NCBI GenBank assembly: GCA_900318445.1
Contig: ONKO01000006.1
Span: forward strand, 61,418 to 125,417
Direction of reading: 5' to 3'
From: an uncultured Bacteroidales bacterium
GTDB taxonomy: Bacteria > Bacteroidota > Bacteroidia > Bacteroidales > UBA932
Length of the DNA stretch: 64,000 nucleotides
Below, piece by piece: positions 3,123-32,799 of this stretch. Position numbers and translations under genes: made by a program. How positions within the stretch are numbered: the stretch's first letter is position 1; the number at the start of each line of letters is the position of its first letter. The notes below the pieces were generated by a model. The model was not told where the DNA came from. It did not search any database and was given only the letters and a program-made list of their open reading frames with translations.

Positions 3123-3229
3123 TGCACATCTAGCTATCCGTCAGCTACTTACGCAACCACGGGTGCACCTACGCGTGCACCCGACAATCAGCAACTTGCT
3201 GTCATAGAGTGACTTACGCATCACCCGGC
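3123..3229. repeat. Left copy of the recQ-bracketing inverted repeat
   Basis: This 107-base element recurs in inverted orientation at 5178-5282 with about 90% identity by hand alignment (roughly eight substitutions and one 2-base indel). Internally it contains the hairpin GGGTGCAC/GTGCACCC and a second small palindrome, CAGCAA/TTGCTG, plus two direct copies of ACTTACGCA. It lies in the tandem spacer between ybaK and recQ. No U-tract follows, so it does not look like an ordinary intrinsic terminator. Confidence 0.85.
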
Positions 3230-3304
3230 AATCGGCCTGTTTTGCGAAAATACGCAGACCGCGAAGAGGGAAATTTGCGAAAAAAGCGCTAACTTAGCGT
3301 GGTT

Positions 3305-5170
3305 ATGACACCGCAGGAGGTACTTCAGAAATACTGGGGCTACGAAGCTTTCCGGCCGATGCAGGAGGAAATCATCCATCAGGCATTGGACGGGAAGGAC
3401 GTGCTGGCCATCCTCCCCACCGGCGGCGGAAAGAGCATCTGCTTCCAGGTGCCGGCGCTCCTGAGGGACGGCATCGCCCTGGTGGTTACACCGCTCATCG
3501 CCCTCATGAAAGACCAGGTGCAGAACCTGCAGGCGCGGGGCATCCGGGCCATGGCCGTCCATGCGGGGATGGGCCGACGGGAAGTGGACCTGGCCCTCAA
3601 CAATGCCGCCTATGGAGACTATAAGTTCCTGTACCTGAGCCCGGAGCGTCTGAGAACGCAGCTCTTTCAGTCCTACCTCAGCGTTCTCAATGTGTCTTTC
3701 ATCGTAGTGGACGAGGCGCACTGTATCTCCCAGTGGGGCTATGACTTCCGTCCCAACTACCTCCAGATTGGAGAGCTCCGGAGCCGGGTCGACGCACCCG
3801 TCATCGCCCTCACCGCCACCGCCACGCCGCTGGTGGCCAAGGATATCATGGCCCGGCTCAAATTTCAGGAGCCCAACATGCTGGTTTCGGGATTCGAGCG
3901 GCCCAACCTCAGCTATGTGGTGCGCAAGACGCAGGACAAACTGGGCCAGATCCGCAGCATCTGCGAGGGCGTCCCCGGCACCGGCATCGTGTACGTCCGC
4001 AGCCGGGCGAGAACGCAGGAGATGGCCGATGCCCTCAAGGCCGCAGGTATATCGGCCTCCTTCTACCACGCCGGCCTGGGCCCCGAGACCCGCTCCCTGC
4101 GGCAGGAAGAATGGAAAAGCGGCCGTACCCGCGTGATGGTGTGCACCAACGCTTTTGGCATGGGCATCGACAAGCCCGACGTCCGTTTTGTGGTACATGC
4201 CGATGTCCCCGACAGCCCGGAGGCCTACTTCCAGGAAGCGGGCCGCGCCGGCCGTGACGGCCTGGAATCCTACGCCGTGCTCCTGTGGAACGGCACCGAC
4301 AAAACCCGCCTGGCCCAGTTGGAGCAGGTTTCCTTCCCCACACTTGAGTTCATCGAGGACATCTACCATAAGGTGCACATCTTCTTTGAGATTCCGTACG
4401 ATGCCGGGATGGGCCGAATGCTCAAGTTCGACCTGGCCGCCTTCTGCCGGCAGTACAAGCTGCAGCAGGCGCCCACCTACTATGCCATCAAATACCTGGA
4501 GCGGGAAGGGCACTGGACCCTGGCCGAGGACATGGACATCCAGACCCGTATCCACATCAACGTAGACCGACAGTCACTCTACTCCGTAGAGCTTCCCGAT
4601 CCCGCCATGCCCGCCGTGCTGGAAGCCCTCATGCGCATGTACACGGGCATTTTCTCCTTTGCCACGCCCATCGACGAAGATGCCGTGGCCGCCCGCTGCG
4701 GCGTAACGGTCCCCATGCTGCGGCAGCTGCTGTATCAGCTCAGCGTGAACCACGTGGTGCGCTACATCCCCGCCGATCACGCCACCGTGCTCCTCATTCA
4801 GCACGACCGCCTGCGCCCCGGCAACGTACAGCTGAGCCCGGACCGCTACAAAATGCTCCGGAGCACCTACCGCGAAAGAGTTCAGACCATGCTGGATTAT
4901 GTGGAAGAAGAGGACGAATGCCGCTCGCAGTTCCTCCTCCGTTACTTCGGGCAGGAAGAGTCCAAGCCCTGCGGCAAGTGCGACCTGTGCCGCTCCGGAG
5001 CTGCCCGGCCCATGGAACTCGCCGCCCGGCTCAAAGCCTGGATCGAAGCCCGCGGCGGCTCCTACACGCTGCTGGAACTGCGCGCCGCCTTCGGTACCGC
5101 CGAGGACAGCTACCTGGGCGTCCTCCGCGAACTCATCGACCGCCACGAAGTCCCGTCCTACACCGAATAG
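3305..5170 (+). CDS. recQ: RecQ-family ATP-dependent DNA helicase
   Basis: RecQ unwinds DNA 3'-5' in recombination and fork repair. In the 621-residue product, Walker A is at 38-44 (PTGGGKS), DEAH at 137-140 within DEAHCISQWG, and the helicase C lobe contains MGIDKPDVRFVVH and the arginine-finger region EAGRAGRDG. The RecQ zinc cluster is present (Cys539, 556, 559, 562). A C-terminal HRDC domain is not evident; the tail after the zinc cluster is only about 59 residues. I took the ATG at 3305 rather than the GTG at 3299. The gene is a single-gene unit enclosed by inverted 105-bp repeats. Confidence 0.93.
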   Translation: MTPQEVLQKYWGYEAFRPMQEEIIHQALDGKDVLAILPTGGGKSICFQVPALLRDGIALVVTPLIALMKDQVQNLQARGIRAMAVHAGMGRREVDLALNNAAYGDYKFLYLSPERLRTQLFQSYLSVLNVSFIVVDEAHCISQWGYDFRPNYLQIGELRSRVDAPVIALTATATPLVAKDIMARLKFQEPNMLVSGFERPNLSYVVRKTQDKLGQIRSICEGVPGTGIVYVRSRARTQEMADALKAAGISASFYHAGLGPETRSLRQEEWKSGRTRVMVCTNAFGMGIDKPDVRFVVHADVPDSPEAYFQEAGRAGRDGLESYAVLLWNGTDKTRLAQLEQVSFPTLEFIEDIYHKVHIFFEIPYDAGMGRMLKFDLAAFCRQYKLQQAPTYYAIKYLEREGHWTLAEDMDIQTRIHINVDRQSLYSVELPDPAMPAVLEALMRMYTGIFSFATPIDEDAVAARCGVTVPMLRQLLYQLSVNHVVRYIPADHATVLLIQHDRLRPGNVQLSPDRYKMLRSTYRERVQTMLDYVEEEDECRSQFLLRYFGQEESKPCGKCDLCRSGAARPMELAARLKAWIEARGGSYTLLELRAAFGTAEDSYLGVLRELIDRHEVPSYTE

Positions 5171-5177
5171 CCCCTCC

Positions 5178-5282
5178 GCCGGGTGATGCGTAAGTTGCTC
5201 TATGGCAGCGAGTTGCTGATTGTCGGGTGCACGCGCAGGTGCACCCGTGGTTGCGTAAGTCGCTGACGGACAGCTAGATGCA
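5178..5282. repeat. Right copy of the recQ-bracketing inverted repeat
   Basis: Reverse-complement partner of the element at 3123-3229. It occupies almost all of the convergent spacer between the recQ stop and the M28-like gene, and keeps the GGTGCAC/GTGCACC hairpin. Confidence 0.85.
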
Positions 5283-5300
5283 TATCCGCCAGGAAACGCC

Positions 5301-6287
5301 CTACATAACCCGGTCCAGAAAGCGGAAGATAAGGCGGATGCGCTCGGTGAGAATGTCGTAGTTCAAAGACGAAGGGGTATCCTCCGGTTTGTTGTTCAAA
5401 AAAGTAATACCGCTAGTGAACATGACGGCAGGAACGCCGTGCTCCAGAAAGATGCGCTGATCGGAGATGCGGCGGAAAAACAGGCGGGTAAAGTCTTTGG
5501 AGCCGTAATAATCGTAGCCGATCTCCAGGCCGAAGCCCTTATCCCTGTTGGCACTGGCAAGGGAATTCCGGCGGCTGTCGCCCTCATTCGAAAGCATCAT
5601 GAGGTACCGCGGATGACCCTCGGTCAGCGGTGCCAGCGTGCCGCCCAGCTGGTCCAGGTTCACCACCAGGGAAATCTGGGAAGGCGTAACGACCGAACCG
5701 GAAACGGGATCCAGGAGCTTTCCGGAAGAGATGAGTCTCCACAGTTCCGCAGCCCCGCCCTGGTTCTTTTCCTTGGCATCCAGCGCCACCACAATGAGGC
5801 TGTTTCGGTAAATCTTGTGGCAGGTATTCATGCGGGTGACCATGCCGGCAATCTCCAGAAGAGCCGCAACGCCCGAAGCATTGCTGTCGGCCCCGGGATA
5901 AAAAGCCCCGTTGAGATAGCCCAGGTTGTCATAGTGCGCCATGAGAATCACATAGCGGGCAGGTGTAGCGCTGCCGGGGATAAGGCCGATGACATTCCGC
6001 GCCAGCCCTTCTGCGGTATTGAACCCGTGGAGCCACGCCCCGCCCAGGGGCTGAAGGCCCAGCACGCGGAAATTCCCCTCCAGCCAGGAAGCCGCAGCGC
6101 GACCGCCGGGGGTGCCGGTAGCGCGACCGCCGAGCTCGGGCGAGCACAGGTACTCCACGTTGGAGCGGATGTTCTCCGTCTTCAGGACGGCGTCGGCATT
6201 GATGGGAGAAATGGTATACCCCTGCCCCCAGGCGGGAATTGCGGCGGCAAGGAAGCTTATGATAAATAATTTTAGTATCTTTGTCAT
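5301..6287 (-). CDS. Secreted M28-family peptidase homologue with degenerate active site
   Basis: The 328-residue protein starts with a signal peptide (MTKILKLFIISFLAAAIPAW, then GQ) and follows the M28 zinc aminopeptidase fold: AHYDN (first His ligand) near residue 118, GADSNASGV (bridging Asp), and VNLDQLGG (Asp ligand). Two functional positions are altered. The Glu-Glu pair that supplies the general base and a ligand reads DAKEKN (Lys-Glu), and the C-terminal His-containing motif (usually HTPxD) reads NKPEDT. Catalysis is therefore doubtful. It may be a binding or structural relative. It is convergent with recQ and divergent from the TPR gene. Confidence 0.8.
   Translation of the reverse strand: MTKILKLFIISFLAAAIPAWGQGYTISPINADAVLKTENIRSNVEYLCSPELGGRATGTPGGRAAASWLEGNFRVLGLQPLGGAWLHGFNTAEGLARNVIGLIPGSATPARYVILMAHYDNLGYLNGAFYPGADSNASGVAALLEIAGMVTRMNTCHKIYRNSLIVVALDAKEKNQGGAAELWRLISSGKLLDPVSGSVVTPSQISLVVNLDQLGGTLAPLTEGHPRYLMMLSNEGDSRRNSLASANRDKGFGLEIGYDYYGSKDFTRLFFRRISDQRIFLEHGVPAVMFTSGITFLNNKPEDTPSSLNYDILTERIRLIFRFLDRVM
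6276..6283 (+). promoter_or_regulatory. -7 box TATCTTTG of the TPR gene
   Basis: An exact TAnnTTTG box lying on the first codons of the divergent M28-like gene, about 35-50 bases upstream of the possible TPR start codons at 6319 and 6334. Confidence 0.6.
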
Positions 6288-6333
6288 TTGGCGCGAAATT
6301 AGTTATTTCGCTGCTGAAATGAAAATTTTTTTA

Positions 6334-8325
6334 ATGAAAAAACAGCTTCGTATCTTCCTCACCCTGCTGGCCGTCGCCATCCCCCTCTGCGCACGGGCCC
6401 AGTACGACAAAGACGTCTTCTCCTTCCGCGGCCGAACGGCCCTGCAGGACGGGCGCCTGGGAGAAGCCGTTTCCAACTTCAACATCCTGGCCCAGCTGGA
6501 CTCCACCGACTACTGGACCTTCTTCTACCGCGGCATTGCCAAGTACAACCTCGGAGACATCCGCGGCGCCCGGGCCGATTTTTCCACGGCCGTCCGCCTC
6601 AACCCCGTCTTCACCTCCGGCTACCACTACCGGGCCATCACCGAGAGCCGCAGCGGAGACTACGACGGTGCCCTGAAGGACCTCCAGCGCGCCATTGAGC
6701 TGCGCCCCGGATCCTCCGGCCTGTATTTCACCCGCGGCGTCACCTACTTCCTGAGCCGCCAGTTCGAGAGAGCCGTCCAGGACTTTGACAAATACATCCG
6801 CCAGGAGCCCAAGGACCCGTCGTCCTACCTCAACCGAGGCGCCTCCTACCTGTTCCTGCAGGACACCACCCGGGCCCTCTCCGACTACAACCATGCCATC
6901 AAGCTGGACCGCTTCGAGCCCGAAGGCTACATCCGCCGCGGCGGCCTCATGGCAGCCCGGAAGAATTACAGCGAAGCCCTCAAGGACCTGGACAAGGCTA
7001 TTGAGCTGGATTCCACCCTTACCCTCGCCTACTTTAACCGTGCCCTGGTTCGCAGCGAAACCGGAGACCTCAACGCCGCCATGAAAGACCTCAACAAGGT
7101 GCTGAAGTACGAGCCCGGCAACGCCCTTACGCTCTACAACCGAAGCCTCCTCAGCGCCCAGGTAGGAGACTACGAAGGCGCCCTCTCCGACATGGACCGC
7201 GTCATCGCCATCAACCCCGGCAACGTGCTGGCCTACTTCAACCGCGCGGGCTTTTTCATCGAGATGCAGCGCTGGGACGACGCCCTGGCCGACTACAACA
7301 AGGCCATCGAGCTGTACCCGGACTTTGCCAAGGCCTACATGAACCGGGCCTACGTAGAACTGCAGCTGGGCATGAACCGCGCTTCCAAGGAAGACTACCG
7401 CACCGCGCGCGCCAAAGTGGCCGATTACGAGAAGGCCACGGCGGGCGGGGCCGATTTCTCCGACACCACCCGCAAATACAGCAGCCTCCTGGCCCTGGAT
7501 GCCGACTTCGCCCGCAGCGGCGGCTTCGAGGACGAGATGCTGCGCCACCGGGACGTTGACATCAACCTCAAGCCGCTCTACCGCTTTGCCGTGGTGGAAA
7601 GCGTCGCACCCATCGGCTCGTATGCGCTGGAGCATCGCTACGAGAACCGCCTCCTGGACGCCTTCCTCGCAGCGGCCCCCGTACCGGTGACGGTGACGGC
7701 CGATGCTGCCTCCGTCCCCGTGACATCGGCCCTCCTTGCGGAAAAGACCGACGACGCCTTCATAAAAGGCCTGCAGGAAGTGGGTCTGAAGCAGTACACG
7801 CAGGCGTTGCAGCACTATACGGAGGCCGTGGAGTCGCCCGAAGAAGGGGCCTACGCCGCCTACCACAAGGCTTTTTACCTGATGAACCGCGGCGCCCTCA
7901 GGGCCGAGATGATCGAGTTCATCGCCTCGTTCGAATCCAACGTCCAGACGCTCACGATGGACGACAAAGGCAACACCCGCGCCCGCGTCCGCGAGCAGGT
8001 GAGCCGCGAATACGACTACTCGGAGGCCCTGTCCGACATGGAAGCGGCAGCGGCCATCCTGCCGTCCTTCCCCTACATCCAGTTCAATCTGGGAAACCTG
8101 TACTGCCTCAGTTCCCGCTTTGTGCAGGCTATCGAAAGCTATGACAAGGCCATCAAGCTGTACCCCTGGATGGGCAGCGCCTACTTCAACAGGGGCCTCG
8201 TGCTCATTTATCTCAAGGACAAGGAAAAAGGTTGCATAGACCTTTCCCGTGCCGGAGAGCTGGGCGTAGATGGCGCATACGGTGTCATTTCCCGCTACTG
8301 CGACAAGGAGGAGGGCGAGCTATGA
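6334..8325 (+). CDS. Secreted tetratricopeptide-repeat protein
   Basis: The product (663 residues from this start) has a classical signal peptide (MKKQLRIFLTLLAVAIPLCA, then RAQ) and a long run of TPR motifs. About ten repeats fill residues 25-400, with repeated blocks such as AIELRPGSSGLYFTRG and AIELYPDFAKAYMNRA. A linker of roughly 100 residues follows, then another TPR block to the C-terminus. TPR arrays act as protein-protein scaffolds, here presumably in the periplasm. An in-frame ATG at 6319 would add five residues; I prefer 6334 because it gives the cleaner signal peptide. The stop overlaps the next gene's start (ATGA), so the two are co-expressed. No specific function can be assigned. 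Confidence 0.88.
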   Translation: MKKQLRIFLTLLAVAIPLCARAQYDKDVFSFRGRTALQDGRLGEAVSNFNILAQLDSTDYWTFFYRGIAKYNLGDIRGARADFSTAVRLNPVFTSGYHYRAITESRSGDYDGALKDLQRAIELRPGSSGLYFTRGVTYFLSRQFERAVQDFDKYIRQEPKDPSSYLNRGASYLFLQDTTRALSDYNHAIKLDRFEPEGYIRRGGLMAARKNYSEALKDLDKAIELDSTLTLAYFNRALVRSETGDLNAAMKDLNKVLKYEPGNALTLYNRSLLSAQVGDYEGALSDMDRVIAINPGNVLAYFNRAGFFIEMQRWDDALADYNKAIELYPDFAKAYMNRAYVELQLGMNRASKEDYRTARAKVADYEKATAGGADFSDTTRKYSSLLALDADFARSGGFEDEMLRHRDVDINLKPLYRFAVVESVAPIGSYALEHRYENRLLDAFLAAAPVPVTVTADAASVPVTSALLAEKTDDAFIKGLQEVGLKQYTQALQHYTEAVESPEEGAYAAYHKAFYLMNRGALRAEMIEFIASFESNVQTLTMDDKGNTRARVREQVSREYDYSEALSDMEAAAAILPSFPYIQFNLGNLYCLSSRFVQAIESYDKAIKLYPWMGSAYFNRGLVLIYLKDKEKGCIDLSRAGELGVDGAYGVISRYCDKEEGEL

Positions 8326-9122
8326 GCCTTCGCTTCATCAGTTTTTCCAGCGGCAGCTGTGGCAACTGTTCCCTGCTCCTGGGCCCGCATTCAGGCATCA
8401 TGATTGACGCCGGCGTGGGCATCCGCCGCATCAAGAAAGAGCTGGAAGCGCTGCACCTGAGCTATGCCGACATATCGGCCATCCTCGTCACGCACGACCA
8501 CGGGGACCACATCCGTTCCCTGGGCTCGTTCTGCAAGCGCGTGCAGGCGCCGGTCTGGACCACCGAAACCATCCACAACGCCCTGCTGTGGCATCCGTTC
8601 ACGCGGGATTTCATCGGCCCGTGCCGGCAGGACCTGCAGGCCGGCGTCTGGAACCCCGTTACCGAAGACTTTGACGTGCAATACTTTGTGGTTCCGCACG
8701 ACGCCACGCAGTGCGTAGGCTACGCCATCCGCTGCGGCGAGGAACTCTTCGTGCTCATGACCGATATGGGCCACACTACGCCCGAAGCCCTGGACTGGGC
8801 CTCCCGTGCCACCACCGTTGTAGTGGAATCCAATTACGATGTGGACATGCTCCTCGGCGGTGACTACCCTCAGTACCTGAAAGACCGAATCACGCACGGA
8901 ATCGGGCATCTTTCCAACGACGCCTGTGCCGAGGCCATCGGCCAGTTTCTGCATCCCGGCCTCCGGAACATCTTCCTGTGCCACCTCAGCGGCAACAACA
9001 ACACCCCCGAACTCGCCTACGACAGCGCCCGCGCCGCCCTTGCCGCCGCCGGCGTGGAGCCCGGCACCATCTCCCTCCGCGTCCTCAAGCGCGGCATCGC
9101 CTCTCCCCTGCTGGTGCTGTAG
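8322..9122 (+). CDS. Metallo-beta-lactamase-fold hydrolase (YycJ/WalJ-like)
   Basis: The 266-residue protein begins MSLRFISFSSGSCGNCSLL and has the metal-binding signature THDHGDH (His58, His60, Asp62, His63), then VVPHDA, MTDMGH and the late CHLSGNNNT motif. The SSGSxGN opening and overall length match YycJ/WalJ-type proteins, thought to be cytosolic phosphodiesterases or nucleases linked to cell-wall signalling in Firmicutes; the Bacteroidota role is not established. Translation is coupled to the TPR gene through ATGA. Confidence 0.85.
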   Translation: MSLRFISFSSGSCGNCSLLLGPHSGIMIDAGVGIRRIKKELEALHLSYADISAILVTHDHGDHIRSLGSFCKRVQAPVWTTETIHNALLWHPFTRDFIGPCRQDLQAGVWNPVTEDFDVQYFVVPHDATQCVGYAIRCGEELFVLMTDMGHTTPEALDWASRATTVVVESNYDVDMLLGGDYPQYLKDRITHGIGHLSNDACAEAIGQFLHPGLRNIFLCHLSGNNNTPELAYDSARAALAAAGVEPGTISLRVLKRGIASPLLVL

Positions 9123-9156
9123 CCCCCCTCGTTGGACCTGGTCCACCGCCTCTCCC

Positions 9157-9252
9157 CGACGTATAACACGTTTTTGCCGCAAAAGTGCGTTACAGGTCCC
9201 ACTCAAGGGTACCCTGTAACGCACTTTTCGGCGTTTTTCGCGTTACACGTCG
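9157..9252. repeat. Palindromic intergenic element, copy A
   Basis: A 96-base element with a perfect 16-bp inner stem (AAAAGTGCGTTACAGG and its complement) and weaker outer arms (CGACGTATAACACGTTTTT against AAAAACGCGTGTAACGTCG-like sequence on the other side). Copy B at 14458-14553 is the same element in inverted orientation, and copy C at 35682-35773 is a diverged third member. It lies between the YycJ-like gene and the MsbA-like gene. Confidence 0.85.
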
Positions 9253-9279
9253 GCGGGTTAAAGTTTGCACGATTTTTCG

Positions 9280-9287
9280 TATCTTTG
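9280..9287 (+). promoter_or_regulatory. -7 box TATCTTTG of the MsbA-like operon
   Basis: Exact TAnnTTTG match ending six bases before the ATG at 9294, so the transcript would be leaderless or nearly so. It sits just inside the bracket formed by palindromic copies A and B. Confidence 0.65.
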
Positions 9288-9293
9288 CAATCT

Positions 9294-11147
9294 ATGATCA
9301 AAGATTTCATGAAACTCATGCGGCAGTATGCCGCTCCGTATAAAGGACATCTGGCAGGGGCTGTCGTCCTGAACATCCTCAGCGCCGTATTCAACATATT
9401 CTCCTTTGCCATCCTGGTGCCGCTGCTCCAGATTCTGTTCAAGGTGAATGACAAGGTTTACACGTTCATGCCCTGGGAGGCGGACGAGTCGTTCAAGGAC
9501 ATTGTCACCAACAACTTCTACTATTATGTGTCATCCTATGCCCAGGCGCATGGCGTAGTGCCGACCCTGGCCCTTCTGGCCGGCGTCATGATCCTGTTCA
9601 CCATCCTCAAGACCAGCTGCTACTTCGGCTCCAATGCGGTGATGATTCCCATCTCCACGGGAATTGTGAAGGAAATCCGCTGCCGTATCTACGACAAAAT
9701 CCTGCGCCTTCCCATCGGCTTTTTTACCGATGAGCGCAAGGGAGACATCGTGGCACGCATCACCGGAGACGTGTCAGAGGTAGAAAACTCCATCATCGCC
9801 AGTCTGTCCCTTCTGATTAAAGATCCCATCCTCATTGTCATCTACTTCGGTTTCCTCACCTGGTTAAGCCCGGAGATGATGATTTTCACCGTTGTGTTTG
9901 CTCCGGCTTTCATCTGGGTGATGGGGATTATCGGCAAACAGCTCAAGCGCAACTCGCTGGAGGCGCAGGCCCTGTGGTCCGATACCATGAGCCAGGTGGA
10001 CGAAACCCTGGGCGGGCTTCGTGTCATCAAGGCGTTCAACGCCGAGAAGACCATGCGTGGCCGTTTCCACGATATCACGGACCGCATGCGCCGCAAAATT
10101 GCCCGCGTGAGCACCCGTCAGGCACTGGCGCACCCCGTGAGCGAATTTCTGGGGACGGTGATGCTCATGATTGTGCTGTGCGTGGGCGGCGCCATGATTG
10201 TAGGTGGCAATAGCCTGCTGGGAAACGGCAAATTCATCGATGCTCCCACTTTTATCTTCTTCCTCGTCATCCTCTATTCTGTCATAGAGCCCATCAAGGA
10301 ACTCTCCCGCGCCACGTACGGCGTACGCAAAGGGCTGGCTTCCATGGAACGAATCAACAAGATCCTGGAGGCCGAGAACCCCATCAAGGACCCGGAGAAT
10401 CCCCAGCCGCTCGGCGCCTTCGAGCGCAGCATCAAGCTGGAAGACGTGTCTTTCTCCTATGACGGCAACCGCCAGATTCTGGATCATGTGAGCCTGGAGA
10501 TACCTCGCGGAAAAATGATTGCCATCGTGGGTGAGTCCGGAGCCGGCAAGTCCACCCTCGTGGATCTCATTCCCCGTTTCTGGGACGTTACCGGCGGACG
10601 CATCACCATAGACGGAAAGGACGTACGCGATGTCAGCGTCAAGGACCTCCGCGCCCTCATGGGCAATGTGAACCAGGAGCCCATCCTGTTCAACGACACC
10701 ATCTACAACAACATTGCCTTCGGCGTGGAAGGTGCCACCGAGGAACAGGTCATCGCCGCTGCCAAGATTGCCAACGCCCACGAGTTCATCATGGAGAAGG
10801 AGGAAGGGTACCAGACCAATATCGGAGACCGCGGCAGCAAGCTCTCCGGCGGCCAGCGCCAGCGCCTCTCCATTGCCCGCGCCATCCTCAAGAACCCGCC
10901 CATCCTCATCCTGGACGAGGCCACCGCTTCCCTCGACACCGAGAGCGAACGCATGGTGCAGGACGCCCTGGACAAGCTCATGTCCAGCCGCACCACCATC
11001 GCCATCGCCCACCGCCTGTCCACCATCAAGAATGCCGATGAAATCATCGTGATGCACGAAGGGCACATCGTGGAGCGCGGCCGTCATGAGGAGCTCATCG
11101 CCCTGGGCGGCTACTACAAGAAACTTAACGACATGCAGGCGCTGTAA
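9294..11147 (+). CDS. MsbA-like ABC exporter (fused membrane and ATPase domains)
   Basis: A 617-residue half-transporter: six membrane helices in residues 20-340, then a nucleotide-binding domain with Walker A GESGAGKST near 413, signature LSGGQRQR near 517 and Walker B ILILDEA near 537. Such homodimers flip lipids or export hydrophobic compounds; lipid A core (MsbA) is the likely cargo in a Gram-negative, but this is by family only. The ATG at 9294 directly follows a -7 box; ATG 9309 is an alternative. Its stop overlaps the VanZ-like start (TAATG), and the third gene is an envelope protein, which supports a cell-envelope role. Confidence 0.9.
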   Translation: MIKDFMKLMRQYAAPYKGHLAGAVVLNILSAVFNIFSFAILVPLLQILFKVNDKVYTFMPWEADESFKDIVTNNFYYYVSSYAQAHGVVPTLALLAGVMILFTILKTSCYFGSNAVMIPISTGIVKEIRCRIYDKILRLPIGFFTDERKGDIVARITGDVSEVENSIIASLSLLIKDPILIVIYFGFLTWLSPEMMIFTVVFAPAFIWVMGIIGKQLKRNSLEAQALWSDTMSQVDETLGGLRVIKAFNAEKTMRGRFHDITDRMRRKIARVSTRQALAHPVSEFLGTVMLMIVLCVGGAMIVGGNSLLGNGKFIDAPTFIFFLVILYSVIEPIKELSRATYGVRKGLASMERINKILEAENPIKDPENPQPLGAFERSIKLEDVSFSYDGNRQILDHVSLEIPRGKMIAIVGESGAGKSTLVDLIPRFWDVTGGRITIDGKDVRDVSVKDLRALMGNVNQEPILFNDTIYNNIAFGVEGATEEQVIAAAKIANAHEFIMEKEEGYQTNIGDRGSKLSGGQRQRLSIARAILKNPPILILDEATASLDTESERMVQDALDKLMSSRTTIAIAHRLSTIKNADEIIVMHEGHIVERGRHEELIALGGYYKKLNDMQAL

Positions 11148-11548
11148 TGATCCGTGGACAGAAAATAGCCTTCCGCCTCCTCTTCTTCCTGTACATAGCG
11201 GGAGTGTTGTATCTGTGCTTCGGCCATTTTGACAACACGCCGTCCGTACCGCTTACCCTCTGGGGCATCCCCACCGACAAGCTGGTGCATTTTGCCATGT
11301 TCTTCCCTTTTCCCATTCTTGCCTTCCTGGCCTTTGACACCTTCACCCAAACCGTCCGTGAGACGCTTCTGTTCGTGGGTGTCACCCTCCTTGTCGGCAT
11401 ACTCATCGCCGTGGGGACCGAAATGGGCCAGGCCAACCTGACCGACTACCGCAGCGGTGACCCGCTGGACCTTGTGGCCGACACCATCGGCCTGTCCGTG
11501 AGTTCCCTCATCACCGCCGTCTGGGATATCCGCAAACAGAAAAAATGA
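11147..11548 (+). CDS. VanZ-like membrane protein
   Basis: A 133-residue protein with about four hydrophobic helices. It carries the VanZ-family pattern in which TDKLVHFAMFFPF follows a first helix, and TEMGQ...YRSGDPLDLVADTIG precedes the last helix. The family is named after a low-level teicoplanin-resistance gene, but most members have no known function. It is the middle gene of a tightly coupled operon, with one-base overlap upstream and four-base overlap downstream, between an ABC exporter and a secreted amidase-like protein. Confidence 0.85.
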   Translation: MIRGQKIAFRLLFFLYIAGVLYLCFGHFDNTPSVPLTLWGIPTDKLVHFAMFFPFPILAFLAFDTFTQTVRETLLFVGVTLLVGILIAVGTEMGQANLTDYRSGDPLDLVADTIGLSVSSLITAVWDIRKQKK

Positions 11549-14442
11549 AGCGACTTTTCCTTGCTGTTCTCGTGGCTGCGGCCACCCTTCCGCTACAGGC
11601 GCAGAAACCTCGTGCCAAAGACTTTACCGAAACCTGTGACTCCCTGTCGCAGCGCTGGCTGCGCCGAAGCGGTGTCTTAAGCTACTTCAAGGTGGACAAG
11701 GCGCTGGTCCGCGGCAATACCGTAGACCTGTATTTCTCACAGAACGTCACCGCCTTCCCCTGGCGCGCCGGAGACCCCGAGTGGTTCCGCGCACAGGTGG
11801 AATCCCTCTCCCGGAGCGCTCGCCGCGGCTACAAACTGGGAAAGATTTACGCCGGCAAGCAGCCTTTCTCCGCGCTTCCCATGCCGGAGCTCAAGGCCGA
11901 TGGCCAGTCCCTCCCTACGTCCTTCCGCGTGAAGGACCCGCGCGGCAGTACACCCGCCCTCGTGAGCGGCAGCGACCGGTGGCCTCTGGGCCTGAGCGGC
12001 CGACACATCGCCCTCTGGCAGAGCCACGGCTACTACTACGAGGCGGAGAACGACCGCTGGGAATGGCAGCGCTCGCCCAATCACCGCACGCTGGAAGACA
12101 TCTTCACGCAGAGTTACGTGGTCCCGTTTCTCATGCCCATGCTGGAGAACGCCGGCGCCGTGGTCCTGTGCCCGCGGGAGCGCGACATCCAGACCCGCGA
12201 GGTGGTGTGCGACAATGACGAGCCCTTCAGCGGTCCCCGCGGGGAGATCGTCCGCTGGAAGGGCCGCTACAGCGAGACAGGCCGATGGTCCGATGCCGGC
12301 ACCGGATTCGCCGATGCCAAGGAGGTGTACGCCTTCGGAGACAATCCCTTCACGATGGGATCGGCCCGAAAGACCGACGCTGTCACCTCCGACAAGGCCG
12401 ATGCCCCCCGCGCCGTCTGGCGCCCCGACATTCCAGAGAAGGGCGAATATGCCGTCTACGTCTCCTACAAAAGCCTGCCTGCCAGCACCACCGATGCCCG
12501 CTATACCGTCCACCATCTGGGCGGGGAGAAGCTTCTGCACGTGAACCAGCAGATGAGCGGCGGCACCTGGGTGTACCTGGGTACCTACCTCTTTGACAAG
12601 GGGACGGACGGGTACGTGGAACTGAGCGCGCGCAGCTCATCGGCCGGGATTGTATCGGCCGATGCTGTCCGCTTCGGCGGCGGAATGGGCAAGATGGAGC
12701 GTGGCGGCCATATTTCCGGCATGCCTTCCTTCGTGGAGGGGGCGCTGTACCAGCTGCAGTACGCCGGAATTGACAGCACCCTGTTTGACGACTGGGACGA
12801 CGACTATACCAAAGATTATGCTGGCCGCGGCGCCTGGGTGCAGGAAATGGTATCCCGGAAGGTGCCCGTGGACCTTTCGCTGGCCTGGCATACCGACGCC
12901 GGAGTAACCCCGAACGACTCCATCATCGGCACGCTGGCTATCTATACCCGCACCAACAAAGGCCTCTCGCAGTTCCCGGACGGGGAAGACCGCATGAACA
13001 GCCGGCTGTATTCCGACCTTGTGCAGACGCAGGTTGTGAATGACATCCGGGCGCTGTATGAGCCGGCCTGGACGCGCCGGCAGCTGTGGGACCGCTCCTA
13101 CAGCGAGAGCCGCACGCCCAATGTGCCGGCGCTTCTGCTGGAACTGCTGTCCCATTTGAATTTTGCCGATATGCGCTACGGCCTGGATCCCTCGTTCCGC
13201 TTTACGGCCGCCCGCGCCGTGTACAAGGGCATGCTCAAGTATCTGAGCGCGCGCTACGGCTGCGAATATGCCGTGCAGCCGCTTCCGGTGCATGCCTTCA
13301 AGGTGGACTTGGTCCAGGGCAAAGCGGTTTTGAGTTGGAAGGCTACTGAGGATGCTTTGGAGCCTACCGCCGTGCCCAAATACTACCGGGTATACACCCG
13401 CGTGGGAGACGGTGGCTTCGATGCCGGCTATGAGGTGAACGGTACGTCGGTTACGCTTCCCATGGAGGCGGGAAAACTCTATTCCTATAAGATTACAGCC
13501 TGTAACGACGGCGGCGAGAGCTTTCCCTCGGAAATCCTCTGCGCCGGCTATTCGTCCCTGCATGCACGCCGGGTGCAGGTGGTGAACGACTTCACGCGCG
13601 TGGCTGCTCCCGTGTGGTTTGATACGCCGCAGTATGCAGGCTTCCTGGACGATACCGACAGCGGCGTTCCGTGGGGCCGGGACATTCACTTTGCCGGCTC
13701 CGTGAACGAGTTCGACCGCGGCCGGGCCTGGACCGACGACGACAATCCCGGCTTCGGGGCCAGTTACATGGATCAGGCCGGAAAACCGGTGGCCGGTAAC
13801 ACGTTTGACTTTGCCGCCGCGCACGGTGCGGCCATCCTGAAGGCGGGCTATTCCGTGGAGTCTTCTTCGGCCGAAGCCTTTGACGGGCTCAGCGGTGCCT
13901 TTGCCATAGATATGGTCTGTGGAAAGCAGCTCACGACACGGGTGGGTCGCGGTGCCGTCCCCGACCGCTATCCGGTGTTCTCCGATTCGCTGCAGACGGC
14001 CCTTCGGCGCTTTACCGCTTCCGGCGGGCATGTGCTCATTTCCGGGGCCTACATTGGCACCGATGCCTGGGACCATGTGTACCCGGGCGTTCCGGTGGCA
14101 CCCGAAGCGACACGCGAGTTTGTGCGCACGGTCCTGGGTTATGAGTGGGTAACCAATGCGGGGACTCGTGGAGATGCCGTTCAACCCGCCCGTGGCAGCG
14201 GCCTCCCCGCCGTGCATTACAACCGTTCCTGGAGCCCTTCCGTGTACCGGGTGGAGTGCCCGGACGGCATCAAGCCCGCCAGCGCAAAGGCATCCGTCCT
14301 CATGCGCTACGATGACAGCGCCCACATCGGCGCTGCCACCTGGTATGACGGTCCCGGCTACAAGGTGGCCGCTTTCGGCTTTCCGCTGGAGACCTCCCCG
14401 GAAATGGAGAGCGTGATCCGGGTGGTGCTGGAAAAGTTCTAG
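11545..14442 (+). CDS. Secreted amidase_3-like protein with golvesin-like and fibronectin III domains
   Basis: This 965-residue protein begins with a signal peptide (MKRLFLAVLVAAATLPLQAQ). I read an amidase_3-like fold split by an insertion. LSGRHIALWQSHGYYYE (residues 150-167) resembles the first zinc-His motif, WHTDAGV (about 449-455) the second, and VPALLLELLSHLNF (about 528) the conserved Glu segment. The insert at roughly 230-390 resembles a golvesin C-terminal-like domain. A fibronectin III-like domain follows near 600-680, and the rest is a large unassigned C-terminal region. Members are often labelled xanthan lyase-like or N-acetylmuramoyl-L-alanine amidase-like. Cell-wall cleavage is inferred, not shown. 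Confidence 0.72.
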   Translation: MKRLFLAVLVAAATLPLQAQKPRAKDFTETCDSLSQRWLRRSGVLSYFKVDKALVRGNTVDLYFSQNVTAFPWRAGDPEWFRAQVESLSRSARRGYKLGKIYAGKQPFSALPMPELKADGQSLPTSFRVKDPRGSTPALVSGSDRWPLGLSGRHIALWQSHGYYYEAENDRWEWQRSPNHRTLEDIFTQSYVVPFLMPMLENAGAVVLCPRERDIQTREVVCDNDEPFSGPRGEIVRWKGRYSETGRWSDAGTGFADAKEVYAFGDNPFTMGSARKTDAVTSDKADAPRAVWRPDIPEKGEYAVYVSYKSLPASTTDARYTVHHLGGEKLLHVNQQMSGGTWVYLGTYLFDKGTDGYVELSARSSSAGIVSADAVRFGGGMGKMERGGHISGMPSFVEGALYQLQYAGIDSTLFDDWDDDYTKDYAGRGAWVQEMVSRKVPVDLSLAWHTDAGVTPNDSIIGTLAIYTRTNKGLSQFPDGEDRMNSRLYSDLVQTQVVNDIRALYEPAWTRRQLWDRSYSESRTPNVPALLLELLSHLNFADMRYGLDPSFRFTAARAVYKGMLKYLSARYGCEYAVQPLPVHAFKVDLVQGKAVLSWKATEDALEPTAVPKYYRVYTRVGDGGFDAGYEVNGTSVTLPMEAGKLYSYKITACNDGGESFPSEILCAGYSSLHARRVQVVNDFTRVAAPVWFDTPQYAGFLDDTDSGVPWGRDIHFAGSVNEFDRGRAWTDDDNPGFGASYMDQAGKPVAGNTFDFAAAHGAAILKAGYSVESSSAEAFDGLSGAFAIDMVCGKQLTTRVGRGAVPDRYPVFSDSLQTALRRFTASGGHVLISGAYIGTDAWDHVYPGVPVAPEATREFVRTVLGYEWVTNAGTRGDAVQPARGSGLPAVHYNRSWSPSVYRVECPDGIKPASAKASVLMRYDDSAHIGAATWYDGPGYKVAAFGFPLETSPEMESVIRVVLEKF

Positions 14443-14457: not shown

Positions 14458-14553
14458 CGACGTGTAACGCGAAAAACGCCGAAAAGTGCGTTATAGGTTA
14501 TCCCTCAGTGGGACCTATAACGCACTTTTGCGGCAAAAACGTGTTATACGTTA
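14458..14553. repeat. Palindromic intergenic element, copy B (inverted relative to copy A)
   Basis: The reverse complement of this segment aligns almost base for base with 9157-9252. The 17-bp inner stem AAAAGTGCGTTATAGGT is perfect, with compensating C/T and G/A changes relative to copy A, so the stem is preserved. It fills the convergent gap between the amidase-like gene and argS. Confidence 0.85.
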
Positions 14554-18689: not shown

Positions 18690-18781
18690 TTGCATTCTAA
18701 AATATTCTTAATGACTTTGCGTCCACAATGTTTTGCATGAACGCATACCACCATCACCACCGTACCCCACAGGTCCGGTAG
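18690..18781 (+). promoter_or_regulatory. Orphan histidine leader unit: promoter plus His4 leader peptide
   Basis: An ATG at 18737 opens a 14-codon frame encoding MNAYHHHHRTPQVR and ending at 18781. It is a clear paralogue of the his-operon leader at 23102 (MNSAHHHHHRSPKGR). The promoters also match: TTG at 18690 and TGACTTTG at 18712-18719 have exactly the same 27-base spacing as TTG and TACCTTTG before the true leader. No his gene follows on this strand; the next genes are on the minus strand. I see no convincing terminator hairpin after it. It could be a remnant, or an independent small RNA/peptide sensing charged tRNA(His). Confidence 0.7.
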
Positions 18782-18854
18782 GTTTTTCGTATGCATACAC
18801 CAACCCTAAAAACATGAACGCTTGGCGCATTTATGCATGAGAACAGGCACGTAG

Positions 18855-23056: not shown

Positions 23057-23086
23057 TTGCATTATTAAAAAATATTAATACCTTTG
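23057..23086 (+). promoter_or_regulatory. his operon promoter (TTG / TACCTTTG)
   Basis: A TTG at 23057-23059 and TACCTTTG at 23079-23086 match the Bacteroidota -33 and -7 elements. The transcription start would fall near 23093, just before the leader-peptide start codons at 23096 and 23102. Confidence 0.7.
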
Positions 23087-23101
23087 CATCCAGATATGTT
23101 T

Positions 23102-23149
23102 ATGAACAGCGCACACCATCATCATCACCGTTCTCCCAAGGGCCGGTAG
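23102..23149 (+). CDS. hisL: Histidine operon leader peptide
   Basis: The 15-codon frame encodes MNSAHHHHHRSPKGR with five consecutive His codons; an in-frame ATG at 23096 could add two residues. Ribosome stalling at the His run when tRNA(His) is uncharged is the classical sensor for attenuation. A hairpin with a U-run follows 28 bases after the stop, and hisG begins after that. The GGGCCGG at the end of the leader can pair with part of the terminator stem (GCTTGCCGG), giving a plausible antiterminator. Confidence 0.85.
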   Translation: MNSAHHHHHRSPKGR

Positions 23150-23176
23150 GTGATTCGTGTACAAGAATAATACATG

Positions 23177-23209: not shown

Positions 23210-23254
23210 CGTGCGCCGTCCGGCAGGAACCTAAAGAATTTAACAATAATACAC

Positions 23255-28758: not shown

Positions 28759-29483
28759 ACGTCAAGGACGGCGTGGTGGTGAAAGGCATTAACTTCGAGG
28801 GCCTTAAGGAAGTGGGAGACGCCGTCGAGATGGGCGTCCGCTACTCCCGCGAAGGGGCCGACGAGCTGGTGTACCTGGACATCAGCGCCACCCGGGAAGG
28901 GCGTCGCACCTTTGCGGACCTCGTGAAGCGCATTGCCCTCGGGATTGACATTCCGTTTACCGTGGGCGGGGGCATCGGCTCGGTGGATGACGCCGCCCGC
29001 CTCCTGGATGCCGGTGCCGACAAGGTGACGGTGAACAGCGCCGCGCTGGCGAATCCTTCGCTCATCGGCGAGATTGCGTCCCGGTACGGCAGCCAGTTCG
29101 TAGTGGTGGCCATCGACGCCAAGTGTGTGAAAGGCCGATGGATGTGCACCACCCATGGCGGCAGTAAGTTTACAGACCGGGAACTCTTTAGCTGGGCCCG
29201 GGAGGCGCAGGAACGCGGTGCCGGAGAGATTCTGTTCACGTCCATGGACCATGACGGAACCAGGGCCGGCTATGCCTGCGACGTGTATGCCCGCCTGGCT
29301 TCGGAGTTGTCCGTGCCGGTGATTGCTTCCGGCGGTGCGGGGTCGGTGCAGGACATCGTAGACGTTTTAACGGTTGGCCGGGCCGATGCCGCCCTCGCCG
29401 CCAGCATCTTCCATTACGGAGAAATTCCCATTCCCGCCTTGAAAAAGGCTTTGTATGACGCTTCCATTCCTGTAAGAATATGA
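28728..29483 (+). CDS. hisF: Imidazole glycerol phosphate synthase cyclase subunit HisF
   Basis: HisF uses ammonia from HisH to form imidazole glycerol phosphate and AICAR. The 251-residue TIM barrel begins MVTKRIIPCLDVKDG, with catalytic Asp in CLDVKDG and a second Asp in TSMDHDGTRAGY. The GGGIGS and SGGAGS phosphate loops are intact. It overlaps hisA by 31 bases and hisIE by four, so expression is coupled at both ends. Confidence 0.97.
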   Translation: MVTKRIIPCLDVKDGVVVKGINFEGLKEVGDAVEMGVRYSREGADELVYLDISATREGRRTFADLVKRIALGIDIPFTVGGGIGSVDDAARLLDAGADKVTVNSAALANPSLIGEIASRYGSQFVVVAIDAKCVKGRWMCTTHGGSKFTDRELFSWAREAQERGAGEILFTSMDHDGTRAGYACDVYARLASELSVPVIASGGAGSVQDIVDVLTVGRADAALAASIFHYGEIPIPALKKALYDASIPVRI

Positions 29484-30079
29484 TTTTCGAAGATTTTGAT
29501 TTGAGTAAGAACGCCGACGGACTTCTGCCGGTAATCGTCCAGGACGACACCACCCTCAAGGTGCTCATGCTGGGCTATATGAACAAGGAGGCTTTTGAAA
29601 AGACGGCTTCTTCCGGCCTGGTAACGTTCTGGTCCCGCGGCCGGCAGTGCCTCTGGACCAAGGGCGAGACCAGCGGGAACTACCTGCACGTGGTGTCCAT
29701 GCTTAAGGACTGCGATGCCGACACGCTGCTGGTGCGCGCCCGTCCCGACGGTCCCACCTGCCACCGCGGCACGCCCTCCTGTTTTGACACCGATGTGGAT
29801 GAGGGCTTTGTCCGCACCCTGGCTTCTGTGATACGCGGCCGCCACGAGGCCATGCCCGAAGGCTCCTACACCACCAAGCTCTTTATCAAAGGCCCCAAGG
29901 CCATTGGCAAGAAGGTAGTGGAAGAAGCCGGCGAGGCGGTGATCGAGGCCGTGGACGGCAACCGTTCCCGCTTCATCTACGAGGCCTCCGACCTCATCTA
30001 CCACCTCCTGGTCCTCATCGAAAGCCAGGGCGTAACCGTCCCCGAGCTCGAGCGCGAGCTCGCCGCAAGGCACCGGTAG
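29480..30079 (+). CDS. hisI: Bifunctional phosphoribosyl-AMP cyclohydrolase / phosphoribosyl-ATP pyrophosphatase HisIE
   Basis: The 199-residue fusion covers steps two and three of the pathway. The N-terminal HisI domain has GYMNKEAF, FWSRGRQCLWTKGETSGN and the metal/Cys motif DCDADTLL followed by CHRGTPSCF. The C-terminal HisE domain (about 110-199) has KKVVEEAGEAV and the acidic helices of the MazG-like pyrophosphatase family. It completes the operon; every dedicated histidine step from PRPP is encoded between 23.2 and 30.1 kb. Confidence 0.97.
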   Translation: MIFEDFDLSKNADGLLPVIVQDDTTLKVLMLGYMNKEAFEKTASSGLVTFWSRGRQCLWTKGETSGNYLHVVSMLKDCDADTLLVRARPDGPTCHRGTPSCFDTDVDEGFVRTLASVIRGRHEAMPEGSYTTKLFIKGPKAIGKKVVEEAGEAVIEAVDGNRSRFIYEASDLIYHLLVLIESQGVTVPELERELAARHR

Positions 30080-30090
30080 CGCCGGGGCTG

Positions 30091-30164
30091 TTCCGGGCTC
30101 ATCGGCGCAGGTTCCGGGCTCAACGGCGCAGGTTCCAGCCTCATCGGCGCAGGTTCCGCATCGG
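30091..30164 (+). repeat. 21-bp tandem repeats after hisIE (3.5 units)
   Basis: Units TTCCGGGCTCATCGGCGCAGG at 30091, 30112 and 30133, then a partial unit at 30154. Two to three changes separate the units. The same GGTTCCGGGCT...GGCGCAGG text reappears inverted at 32812-32840 beyond the second palindromic element, so these repeats are the outer part of the bracket around dnaN-dnaQ. Confidence 0.8.
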
Positions 30165-30166
30165 CC

Positions 30167-30273
30167 GTGGCGCTTAAAACGCTTATTATCAATACATTAG
30201 GGTAACTGACGGGTATGAAAAACACACCCGTCAGTTACACTAACATACTATCATTCAACGCGTTAAGCGCCAC
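30167..30273. repeat. Palindromic element D, left bracket of dnaN-dnaQ
   Basis: The 107-base element has outer arms GTGGCGCTTAA/TTAAGCGCCAC and a perfect 13-bp inner stem GTAACTGACGGGT/ACCCGTCAGTTAC around an 11-base loop. Its partner E at 32693-32799 is exactly as long, carries the same arms and is inverted relative to it (the CTTATTAT motif lies in the left arm here and in the right arm, complemented, there). Confidence 0.85.
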
Positions 30274-30327
30274 AGGAAAGAATGCGGAATCTTGCGGCAG
30301 GAAGGCTGTTGTTTCCGAGAAAATGAT

Positions 30328-30335
30328 TATATTTG
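30328..30335 (+). promoter_or_regulatory. -7 box TATATTTG of dnaN
   Basis: Exact TAnnTTTG match 30 bases before the dnaN ATG at 30366, with a TTG at 30309 as a possible -33 element. Confidence 0.65.
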
Positions 30336-30365
30336 TATGCTTGTAGAACAAAAGAAAAACGCTAT

Positions 30366-31487
30366 ATGAATCTGACCATTTCGAGCACCAATCTCCTGAA
30401 GGCCCTCATGGATGTATCCAAGGCCATTCCGTCCAAGTCTCCGCTTCCCATCCTGGAGAATTTCCTCTTCGTCCTCAAGGAGGGCAAGCTGGAAATCACC
30501 GCCTCGGACTCGGAGCTTACGCTGCGCACCAGCATCGAGGTGGAAGTGGCCGATGAAGACGGCTCCATCGCCGTTCCGGCCCGTCACATGATTGACCTGC
30601 TCAAGGAACTGCCAGACCAGCCCGTGGGCATCAAGACCGTGAGCGACAGCTCTTTCGAGTGCACCTGGGCCAGCGGTAACTCGGCCCTGCCGTATTTCCC
30701 GGCCGACGACTACCCGGACATCGCCACCACCGGAGCCGACGCCCTCAAGGTGGAATTCCCCGCAGAAAGCCTCGTGGAAGGCATCCAGAGCACCATTTAT
30801 GCCACCGCCGATGACGAAATTCGCCCGGCCATGAACGGTATCTTCTTCGACCTCGCTCCGGAGAGCACCACGCTGGTGGCTTCGGATTCCCACAAGCTCA
30901 TCTGCTATACCACCAAGGACGTGAAGGCCTCGGAGAAAGCTTCCTTCATCCTGCACAAGAAGCCGGCCGGCGTGCTGCGCTCCATCATCGGCAAGGATGT
31001 GGAGAACGTGGAGATTGCCTTTGACAGCTCCACCGCCCAGTTCACCTTCGGCTGCACCACCATGGTATGCCGTCTGGTCGTGGGCAAATACCCCAAGTAC
31101 CGCGACGTCATTCCCATGAACAACGCCAACGTACTGCAGATAGACCGTCAGCTGCTCCTGAACACCGTAAAGCGTGTGGCCGTGTGCGCCAACAAGGCCA
31201 GCAACCACATCAAGTTCACTCTCAAGGAAGGCCAGCTGGAAATCAGCGCCCAGGACCTTGGCTTTGCCCTGGCCGCCTACGAAAAGATCAACTGCAACTA
31301 CTCCGGAGAGGAACTCACCATTGGCTTCAAGAGCACTTTCCTCACGGAAATCCTTGCCAACATGAGCTGCAACACCCTGGTGATGAAGTTCGCCGATGCC
31401 CGTCGCGCCGCTCTCCTGCTTCCCGCCGAGGAAGAGTCCGAGACCGAGAAGGTCTGCGGAATTTTGATGCCTATCATGATCCAATAA
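30366..31487 (+). CDS. dnaN: DNA polymerase III beta subunit (sliding clamp)
   Basis: DnaN forms the ring that tethers replicative polymerase to DNA. The 373-residue product (start MNLTISSTNLLKALMDVSKA) has the three repeated clamp domains, each about 120 residues, and the C-terminal LLPAEEESE...ILMPIMIQ segment, where the protein-binding pocket normally ends in a PMR/PMx motif. The frame is open a little upstream, but the ATG at 30366 is the family start. In Bacteroidota dnaN commonly precedes an exonuclease gene, as here, rather than following dnaA. Confidence 0.96.
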   Translation: MNLTISSTNLLKALMDVSKAIPSKSPLPILENFLFVLKEGKLEITASDSELTLRTSIEVEVADEDGSIAVPARHMIDLLKELPDQPVGIKTVSDSSFECTWASGNSALPYFPADDYPDIATTGADALKVEFPAESLVEGIQSTIYATADDEIRPAMNGIFFDLAPESTTLVASDSHKLICYTTKDVKASEKASFILHKKPAGVLRSIIGKDVENVEIAFDSSTAQFTFGCTTMVCRLVVGKYPKYRDVIPMNNANVLQIDRQLLLNTVKRVAVCANKASNHIKFTLKEGQLEISAQDLGFALAAYEKINCNYSGEELTIGFKSTFLTEILANMSCNTLVMKFADARRAALLLPAEEESETEKVCGILMPIMIQ

Positions 31488-31493
31488 GAAAGT

Positions 31494-32456
31494 ATGGAAC
31501 TGAACCTCGAACGCCCCCTGCTCTTTTTTGATATTGAGAGCACGGGGCTTAATATTGCCACCGATGCAATCATCGAACTGAGCTTCGTAAAGGTGCTTCC
31601 TGGCGGTGAGACCCAGATCAAGACCTGGAAAATCAAGCCGTGGAACTATGAGAAGCACTGCCAGATTCCTATTAATCCGCAGGCATCGGAGGTCAATGGA
31701 GTCAAGGATGAAGACCTGGTTAACTGCCCCCGTTTTATCGAGGTTCTGCCGGAGATCATCTCCTGGCTGCAGAACAGTGACCTGGCCGGTTTCAACTCCC
31801 TCAAGTTCGACCTTCCCATGTTAAGTGAAGAAATCGAACGTGCCCGCGCCTACTCCGAGCAGCGGCTCTCCAGACCCGAATCCAGGGAGAAGGCACAGGA
31901 AATGATTGACTGTATTGACACCGTAGACCTGCATCAGTGCAAGATGGTGGATGTACAGAATATCTATCATCACTTTGAACCCCGTAATCTGCGGGCCGCC
32001 TACCGTTTTTACTGCGGTGGCAAGGACTTCGAGAACGCCCACACGGCCGAGGCCGACACCCTGGCAACCTATGAAGTCCTCAAAAGCCAGCTGGACCGTT
32101 ACGAGAATCCTACGGATTATCAGCAGGAAGTGCTTAAAAATGACGTCGATTCCATGTCCAAGATCGGCCCCCGCACGCGCAATATCGACTTTGCCGGCCG
32201 TCTTATCCTGAACGAGGCTGGAGAAGCCGTAGTGAGCTTTGGCAAACACCGCGGCAAAACCGCCCGTGAAGTGTGGAACACCGAGCCCGCTTACTTCGCC
32301 TGGATCGAAGGCGGAGACTTCACGCTGGACACCAAACGCCAGTTCGCCCGGCTCAAGGCCCAGTTCCAGAAGGAGCGCAAAGAGGCCCTGAACCGCCCCG
32401 CCACCACCGACGAACTCCAGGGCCTGGCCGACAAATTCAACGGGCGCCTGTTCTAA
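31494..32456 (+). CDS. DnaQ-like 3'-5' exonuclease (DEDDh)
   Basis: The 320-residue protein has an N-terminal DEDDh exonuclease domain: FFDIESTG (Asp13, Glu15), GFNSLKFDLPML and HTAEADT supplying the later His and Asp. The C-terminal 90 residues contain a SFGKHRGK motif followed by FAWIEGGDF, a small domain often found appended to these exonucleases in Bacteroidota. It starts six bases after dnaN, so clamp and proofreading-type nuclease are co-expressed. It could be the polymerase III epsilon-like subunit or a repair exonuclease. Confidence 0.9.
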   Translation: MELNLERPLLFFDIESTGLNIATDAIIELSFVKVLPGGETQIKTWKIKPWNYEKHCQIPINPQASEVNGVKDEDLVNCPRFIEVLPEIISWLQNSDLAGFNSLKFDLPMLSEEIERARAYSEQRLSRPESREKAQEMIDCIDTVDLHQCKMVDVQNIYHHFEPRNLRAAYRFYCGGKDFENAHTAEADTLATYEVLKSQLDRYENPTDYQQEVLKNDVDSMSKIGPRTRNIDFAGRLILNEAGEAVVSFGKHRGKTAREVWNTEPAYFAWIEGGDFTLDTKRQFARLKAQFQKERKEALNRPATTDELQGLADKFNGRLF

Positions 32457-32484
32457 AGCGCCGTCCTTCCAGCACTAGAATCAA

Positions 32485-32531
32485 GAGGCTGACCAAAAAG
32501 TCAAATTGACTTGGGTCAGCCCCTTTTTTTT
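32485..32531 (+). terminator. Intrinsic terminator of dnaN-dnaQ
   Basis: GGCTGACC/GGTCAGCC stem with inner AAGTCAA/TTGACTT pairing, then eight T. Outer arms AGCACTAG/CTAGTGCT (32471 and 32537) extend the pairing. Confidence 0.85.
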
Positions 32532-32644
32532 GTTTCCTAGTGCTCATAGGGGTCCATTCGAGTGGCCCGGTAGAGTCAAAAACGGCCATTTTTGCTCTTA
32601 CCCTGCCAAGTTAGTGGACCGCTAACCTCACATGTGTCGGAGGA

Positions 32645-32679
32645 AGAGGTTGACTCAAAAGTGAGTTGACCTCTTTTTT
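32645..32679 (+). terminator. Second intrinsic terminator downstream of dnaQ
   Basis: AGAGGT/ACCTCT stem with inner ACTC/GAGT pairing around AAAA, then seven T. The 110 bases between the two terminators hold no recognisable gene. Confidence 0.75.
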
Positions 32680-32692
32680 ATTAGCCTCCGCC

Positions 32693-32799
32693 GTGGCACT
32701 TAAGTAATTAACTACCAATAGATTAGAGTAACTGACGGGTATCAAAAACGCACCCGTCAGTTACTCTAACTCGTTAATAATAAGCATGTTAAGCGCCAC
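32693..32799. repeat. Palindromic element E, right bracket of dnaN-dnaQ
   Basis: Inverted partner of element D: outer arms GTGGCACTTAA/TTAAGCGCCAC and the same 13-bp inner stem GTAACTGACGGGT. It lies in the convergent space between dnaQ and the BtuC-like gene. The 45 bases after it repeat, inverted, the GGTTCCGGGCT text found before element D. Confidence 0.85.

Follow-up and report, generated by a model that had tools for sequence, protein, structure and literature searches.

In a 64,000-nt stretch of the genome of an uncultured gut bacterium of the Bacteroidales (the window; contig ONKO01000006.1, positions 61,418 to 125,417), three plus-strand transcription units are each framed by two copies of a palindromic intergenic repeat, and the repeats belong to three families, A, B and C. 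These repeats are very probably non-autonomous mobile elements of about 95–115 bp that resemble REPINs, which are built from repetitive extragenic palindromic (REP) sequences, or terminal inverted repeat (TIR) elements. We also consider it probable, with less confidence, that such elements are copied over short distances and that this copying frames operons. Family identity, local kinship of neighbouring copies, preference for certain junctions and recent gain were observed, and for most families a cognate transposase gene of the TnpA-REP-like (RAYT/TIRYT) kind lies elsewhere in the genome between copies of the same family. We are less sure that local copying, rather than local homogenisation, produced the kinship.

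The gene orders in the window are tRNA_edit(+)/A/RecQ(+)/A′/M28(−), LacB(+)/B/ABC...(+)/B′/(−) and (+)/C/dnaN, ORF(+)/C′/FecCD(−). Genes were named by Pfam and from a list of open reading frames (ORFs); tRNA_edit, M28, MatE and LacB are Pfam block labels. An earlier note on this DNA had proposed a common rule for the three operons. Its layout, with the left element at a tandem junction and the right element at a convergent one, held in all three cases, but only A and B form private inverted pairs. In these two pairs, the closest relative of each copy within an 845-kb sample of the genome is its partner, by a wide margin. The A copies (arms of 103 nt, 93% complementary) score 155 bits with each other and 53/51 bits with the next best match; the B copies (94 nt, 94%) score 143 bits compared with 64/69. 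The C copies, 107 nt each, align at 75–78% inverted and 77% direct, that is, about equally well in both senses, because the element is a palindrome. The left C copy scores 105, 99 and 96 bits with copies elsewhere, ahead of its partner, and the right copy 99, 95 and 90 bits, its own partner coming fourth at 88.7. Two further features of the window depart from the rule, a solitary B copy and a direct 75% pair (Table 1). The solitary copy adjoins a cobalamin riboswitch on the minus strand (window 35460–35673; Rfam RF00174, 81.6 bits).

The kinship of neighbours was measured in five contigs or contig parts (C8, C16, C27, C21 and C15; 845,417 bases) that represent 37% of the assembly (G000; 2.31 Mb in 32 contigs, 88% complete). 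Of the intergenic regions in this sample that are 60 bp or longer, 227 in all, 97 bear a repeat common to another region. The best match lay no more than 6 kb away for 43 of the 97; 2000 permutations averaged 1.6 and never exceeded 10. Score thresholds from 40 to 80 bits gave 37/75 to 44/105 regions with a near best match (permutation maxima 7 to 10). When families A–G were seeded, covering 66 regions, neighbouring regions within 8 kb shared a family in 28 of 38 cases (mean 6.5 and maximum 15 in 5000 permutations). The earlier note had held that the arrangement goes beyond scattered intergenic repeats and had called for a comparison with shuffled positions; on the 845 kb, both measures bear it out, and placement differs from a random assignment of families. 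A near best match was also found for 19 of 54 regions in 657 kb of a relative, G019 (mean 0.9, maximum 7), and 300 kb of E. coli K-12 showed a weaker trend in the same direction (4 of 21–26 regions). Families B, C, D and F have 14, 17, 10 and 13 sites in the sample of our genome, and A and G only five and three. The open-licence literature that we searched yielded no paper on nearest-kin pairing of REPs around operons.

Elements were enriched at convergent junctions (27 of 36; p = 3 × 10−5) and depleted at divergent ones (13 of 54 compared with 83 of 170 others; p = 0.0015). REPs in other bacteria likewise avoid divergent and prefer convergent junctions, according to the relevant passages of PMC3733652. 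The strict geometry of the earlier note (an inverted pair, tandem and then convergent) did not prove general: 17 same-family neighbour pairs were inverted and nine direct (binomial p = 0.17), and the tandem-left/convergent-right layout occurred in 10 of 28 such pairs and in 1 of 10 neighbours that did not share a family (Fisher p = 0.23). Gene calls beyond the window were made with a simple codon-usage finder, which misread both A-pair junctions, so the true tandem-plus-convergent count is at least 11. The layout in the window is one likely outcome of two close insertions under junction preference.

Six full elements were folded and gave z scores of −3.9 to −8.6 relative to simple shuffles (A left, −3.9; B left, −8.6; C right, −7.8), and half-elements folded weakly except for one D half (z −4.2). 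Like REPs, the elements are palindromic, intergenic and present in many copies, and they prefer tandem and convergent over divergent junctions. A search for Y1 transposases gave matches within framed segments or next to them, and broader searches added others. All eight transposase genes in the sample are flanked on both sides by one repeat family (A, B, C, D, F, G and two unassigned pairs), with five inverted and three direct flanks. Six of the eight proteins align with an invariant H-x-H, Y and N, in agreement with the HuH motif, catalytic tyrosine and Y1 fold of RAYT/TnpA-REP. A model of the family A transposase from a six-sequence alignment reached a mean predicted local distance difference test (pLDDT) score of 82.5, and its best structural match was 4er8, a REP-associated tyrosine transposase bound to a REP hairpin. 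Because the hidden Markov model (HMM) scores are weak, we regard the transposases as divergent relatives; only 3 of 31 genomes searched, none of the same genus, have any match above the cut-off of the NCBIfam model REP_Tyr_transpos. A transposase lies within 6 of the 28 same-family (A–G) neighbour pairs, and none was seen in the other 22. Family E units are also arranged in tandem, at intervals of ~52 nt, at G000 C16:131889–132585. At G000 C21:204703–208560, an inverted 76% pair frames a transposase gene together with other genes; these other genes are flipped in place in G019, where the junctions inspected contained no transposase.

Comparison with relatives indicates that the framing is recent. 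Around RecQ, 22 same-genus loci had no inverted pair with arms of at least 40 nt, some of their contigs ending close by. The closest RecQ loci, L204, L205 and L240 (85–90%), lack A (best matches ≤ 22 bits), and their RecQ junctions, where readable, hold other hairpins or nothing. These L-numbered loci for the comparison of RecQ and its neighbours come from a named set of metagenome-assembled genomes (MAGs), mostly rumen Bacteroidales. Gene order around RecQ is kept on the left in L204 and on the right in L205, and the LacB–ABC junction of L205 is shorter than 30 bp and empty. G019 has neither copy of the C-family pair found at C27:148661–152696, and the genes there stand in the same order; nor does it have the two C copies around dnaN, where the neighbouring genes are different. 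At RecQ, B-left and C27, elements were thus gained with the tested gene order unchanged, so framing needs no rearrangement. The segment at C15:65565–69256 and the same segment in G019 (C3:7245–11614) are framed by unrelated inverted families, the arms agreeing at 96% and 94% within species and showing no similarity between species; sites are therefore reused. Other frames were seen as well: RecQ in G028 (same taxonomic order only) has its own 36-nt inverted pair, and around tRNA_edit-RecQ-MatE there is a 41-nt inverted pair in L206 and a 62-nt direct pair in L210.

Table 1. Framed units, repeat copies and the neighbouring block M, in window coordinates
Feature	Position	Strand	Remarks
Family A element, left	3127..3229	+	Between tRNA_edit(+) and RecQ(+); best match 5178-5280 at 93%
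Family A element, right	5178..5280	−	Convergent junction RecQ(+)/M28(−)
RecQ-type helicase framed by A pair	3305..5170	+	Pfam DEAD, Helicase_C, RecQ_Zn_bind
Family B element, left	9159..9252	+	Between LacB(+) and ABC transporter(+)
Family B element, right	14458..14551	−	Convergent junction; 94% to left copy
Operon framed by B pair: ABC transporter, short ORF, Golvesin_C-domain protein	9294..14442	+	ORF list, Pfam
Family C element, left	30167..30273		Upstream of dnaN; palindromic, orientation ambiguous, not private
Family C element, right	32693..32799		Convergent junction before FecCD(−); not private
dnaN and second ORF, framed by C copies	30366..32456	+	ORF list; dnaN Pfam domains
Solitary family B copy	35682..35773		No same-family partner nearby; abuts cobalamin riboswitch
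Direct 75% pair, one arm	18690..18790	+	Partner 23057-23158; family unassigned
Direct 75% pair, other arm	23057..23158	+	Partner 18690-18790
Block M: M28, TPR, LacB	5301..9122

We infer that the cognate transposase, acting on single-stranded DNA, makes the copies and that a new one would usually land ~1–8 kb from its parent. Because divergent junctions are under-represented and convergent ones over-represented, the closest sites available would lie at the edges of the adjacent transcription unit, and after a short hop two near-identical copies would frame that unit. Framing would then be a by-product, requiring no benefit to the operon. Transposases of this superfamily use single-stranded DNA as their substrate, in some cases the template of the lagging strand, as passages of PMC6006769 describe, and we propose that single-stranded DNA of the lagging strand would suit hops of a few kilobases. 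More tentatively, at least eight RAYT/TIRYT-like transposases of this genome might drive a short-range copy-out spread of hairpins, typically in hops of one transcription unit (~1–8 kb); the single-stranded DNA exposed at a single replication fork may set this range. If so, each framed operon would record one hop, and the in vivo reach of the transposase could be read from how far apart private partners lie. Of the roles suggested in the earlier note, a system that copies its end element to both sides comes nearest to such local copying, except that the element alone would be copied and no cassette with it. The spread of REP elements within a genome is poorly understood, as a passage of PMC8266576 states. 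If nearest kin lie one gene block apart, the distance and divergence of a pair would form a readable record of single copying events, and operon framing that looks designed could arise without function. This would also caution against taking paired inverted repeats around operons for insulators or cassettes.

Several observations weigh against short-range copying by cognate transposases. The sample was not blind, as its contigs were picked after family matches had been seen on them. Families are not exclusively local, C having many sites genome-wide beside the 17 in the sample, and the weaker trend in E. coli may mean that the local kinship in this genome is not special. When four transposases were scanned with REP_Tyr_transpos, three scored 27.2, 23.4 and 40.4 bits, below the 80-bit cut-off, and the G-family protein had no match to this model. 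No transposase was found for family E, and only 19 of 40 transposase loci in a wider survey (39 from congeners, one from this genome) have a same-family repeat on both sides. The transposases are assigned as putative partners from their flanks and predicted fold, not from activity. No copying event was seen, and local gene conversion would yield the same difference between near and far copies.

Gene conversion is central to an alternative based on concerted evolution. Here, elements would insert anywhere, and neighbours would be homogenised by conversion or hairpin template switching until pairs look private. This would account for near copies being more alike than far ones within several families and for private pairs occurring in both orientations. 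Conversion alone, however, leaves the shared family of neighbours unexplained unless whole elements are swapped, a process with which the observed same-site changes of family between species are consistent; we regard concerted evolution as rather unlikely. Chance proximity of scattered repeats fits the C pair taken alone, but it is contradicted by the permutations in our sample and in G019, and for A and B also by the partner scores, and we give it practically no weight. Selection for bidirectional terminators or operon insulators at the borders of transcription units would fit the strong hairpins and the junction preference. At the left C27 junction, the site of the C element is occupied in G019 by a terminator-like hairpin, and no terminator-like call was made there in our genome. 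Yet a T5 or A5 run within 12 nt, as expected of an intrinsic terminator, accompanies just one of the 46 near-full elements, and no terminator-like call overlaps an A or B element; upstream of the right C element, two hairpins with T runs (about 32485–32530 and 32643–32682) were seen by eye and are absent from the consensus scan list. Moreover, a need for termination leaves the same family at both ends unexplained. The framing is not conserved in the 22 same-genus RecQ loci or the three closest relatives, which argues equally against the insulators and nucleoid-protein anchors of the earlier note. Selection for terminators or insulators is therefore highly unlikely in our view.

The inverted copies could also be the ends by which a transposase or recombination moves or flips an operon. 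In comparison with G019, synteny is broken more often at junctions of at least 100 bp that bear an element (22 of 34 compared with 7 of 22; p = 0.028). Several segments that have a frame in one or other of G000 and G019 are inverted or relocated between these genomes (RecQ, the B operon, block M and C21:204703–208560), and one framed transposase gene has no counterpart at the corresponding site in G019. However, RecQ, B-left and C27 are framed with tested order unchanged relative to element-free relatives; congeners differ in the orientation of block M (8 plus and 12 minus of 20 loci right of RecQ, among L204–L245), and no pair was detected around it; and in G005, which has no inverted pair of its own there, the C27 gene is flipped. 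Among tight junctions (< 100 bp), 14 of 26 are broken, 13 of those without an element. Inversion as the cause of framing is weakened by these cases, and the cassette-mobilising system that had been suggested is at odds with elements gained in an unchanged gene order; we judge a cassette or inversion system to be quite unlikely. That the B operon and block M were flipped in different lineages was not borne out by wider comparison. Frequent local inversion is taken as a separate feature of the lineage that shares boundaries at transcription-unit edges with the elements. Block M is joined to the ABC gene by less than 30 bp in L204 and L205, with no detected pair around the block. Operon-size blocks at C15:102596–106179 and C15:110807–113824 are flipped or reordered relative to G019 C3 without repeats, at junctions of 6–54 bp and, at one edge, 138 bp.

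Passages of PMC3116915 and PMC6006769 on the REPINs and REPtrons of Pseudomonas and E. coli, with their RAYT/TnpA-REP proteins, describe intergenic hairpins of similar size, several families per genome, and the association of every family with a single HuH tyrosine transposase gene that its copies flank. Our elements share these traits. REPINs are pairs of GTAG-tagged REPs; none was recognised here, element ends being read by eye and without a systematic search for such a tetranucleotide foot. The transposases, at about 300 aa, fall below the NCBIfam REP cut-off, and close kinship extends to neighbouring copies separated by one to several genes, whereas passages of the SBW25 study test clustering within 400 bp. 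TIRtrons, in the passages of PMC3733652 that treat them, likewise have longer Y1 transposases (TIRYT) flanked by inverted repeats, in moderately abundant and sometimes self-complementary families, and are linked to TnpA-Y1 subclass 2.1 (passage of PMC6006769). The flanks here differ in being direct, not inverted, in 14 of the 19 flanked survey loci. Subclass 2.6 also occurs in Bacteroidetes and is flanked by atypical secondary structures copied elsewhere in the genome, but it is listed at about 179 aa in a table of PMC6006769, compared with about 300 aa here. Finally, CGTC/GACG was seen by eye near the ends of B, D and G, as in the CGTC-tagged REPs, whose preference for unidirectional and convergent junctions, near 3′ ends, is also shared. 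In the passages of PMC3733652 concerned, CGTC repeats flank no transposase, whereas B, D and G flank transposase-like genes.

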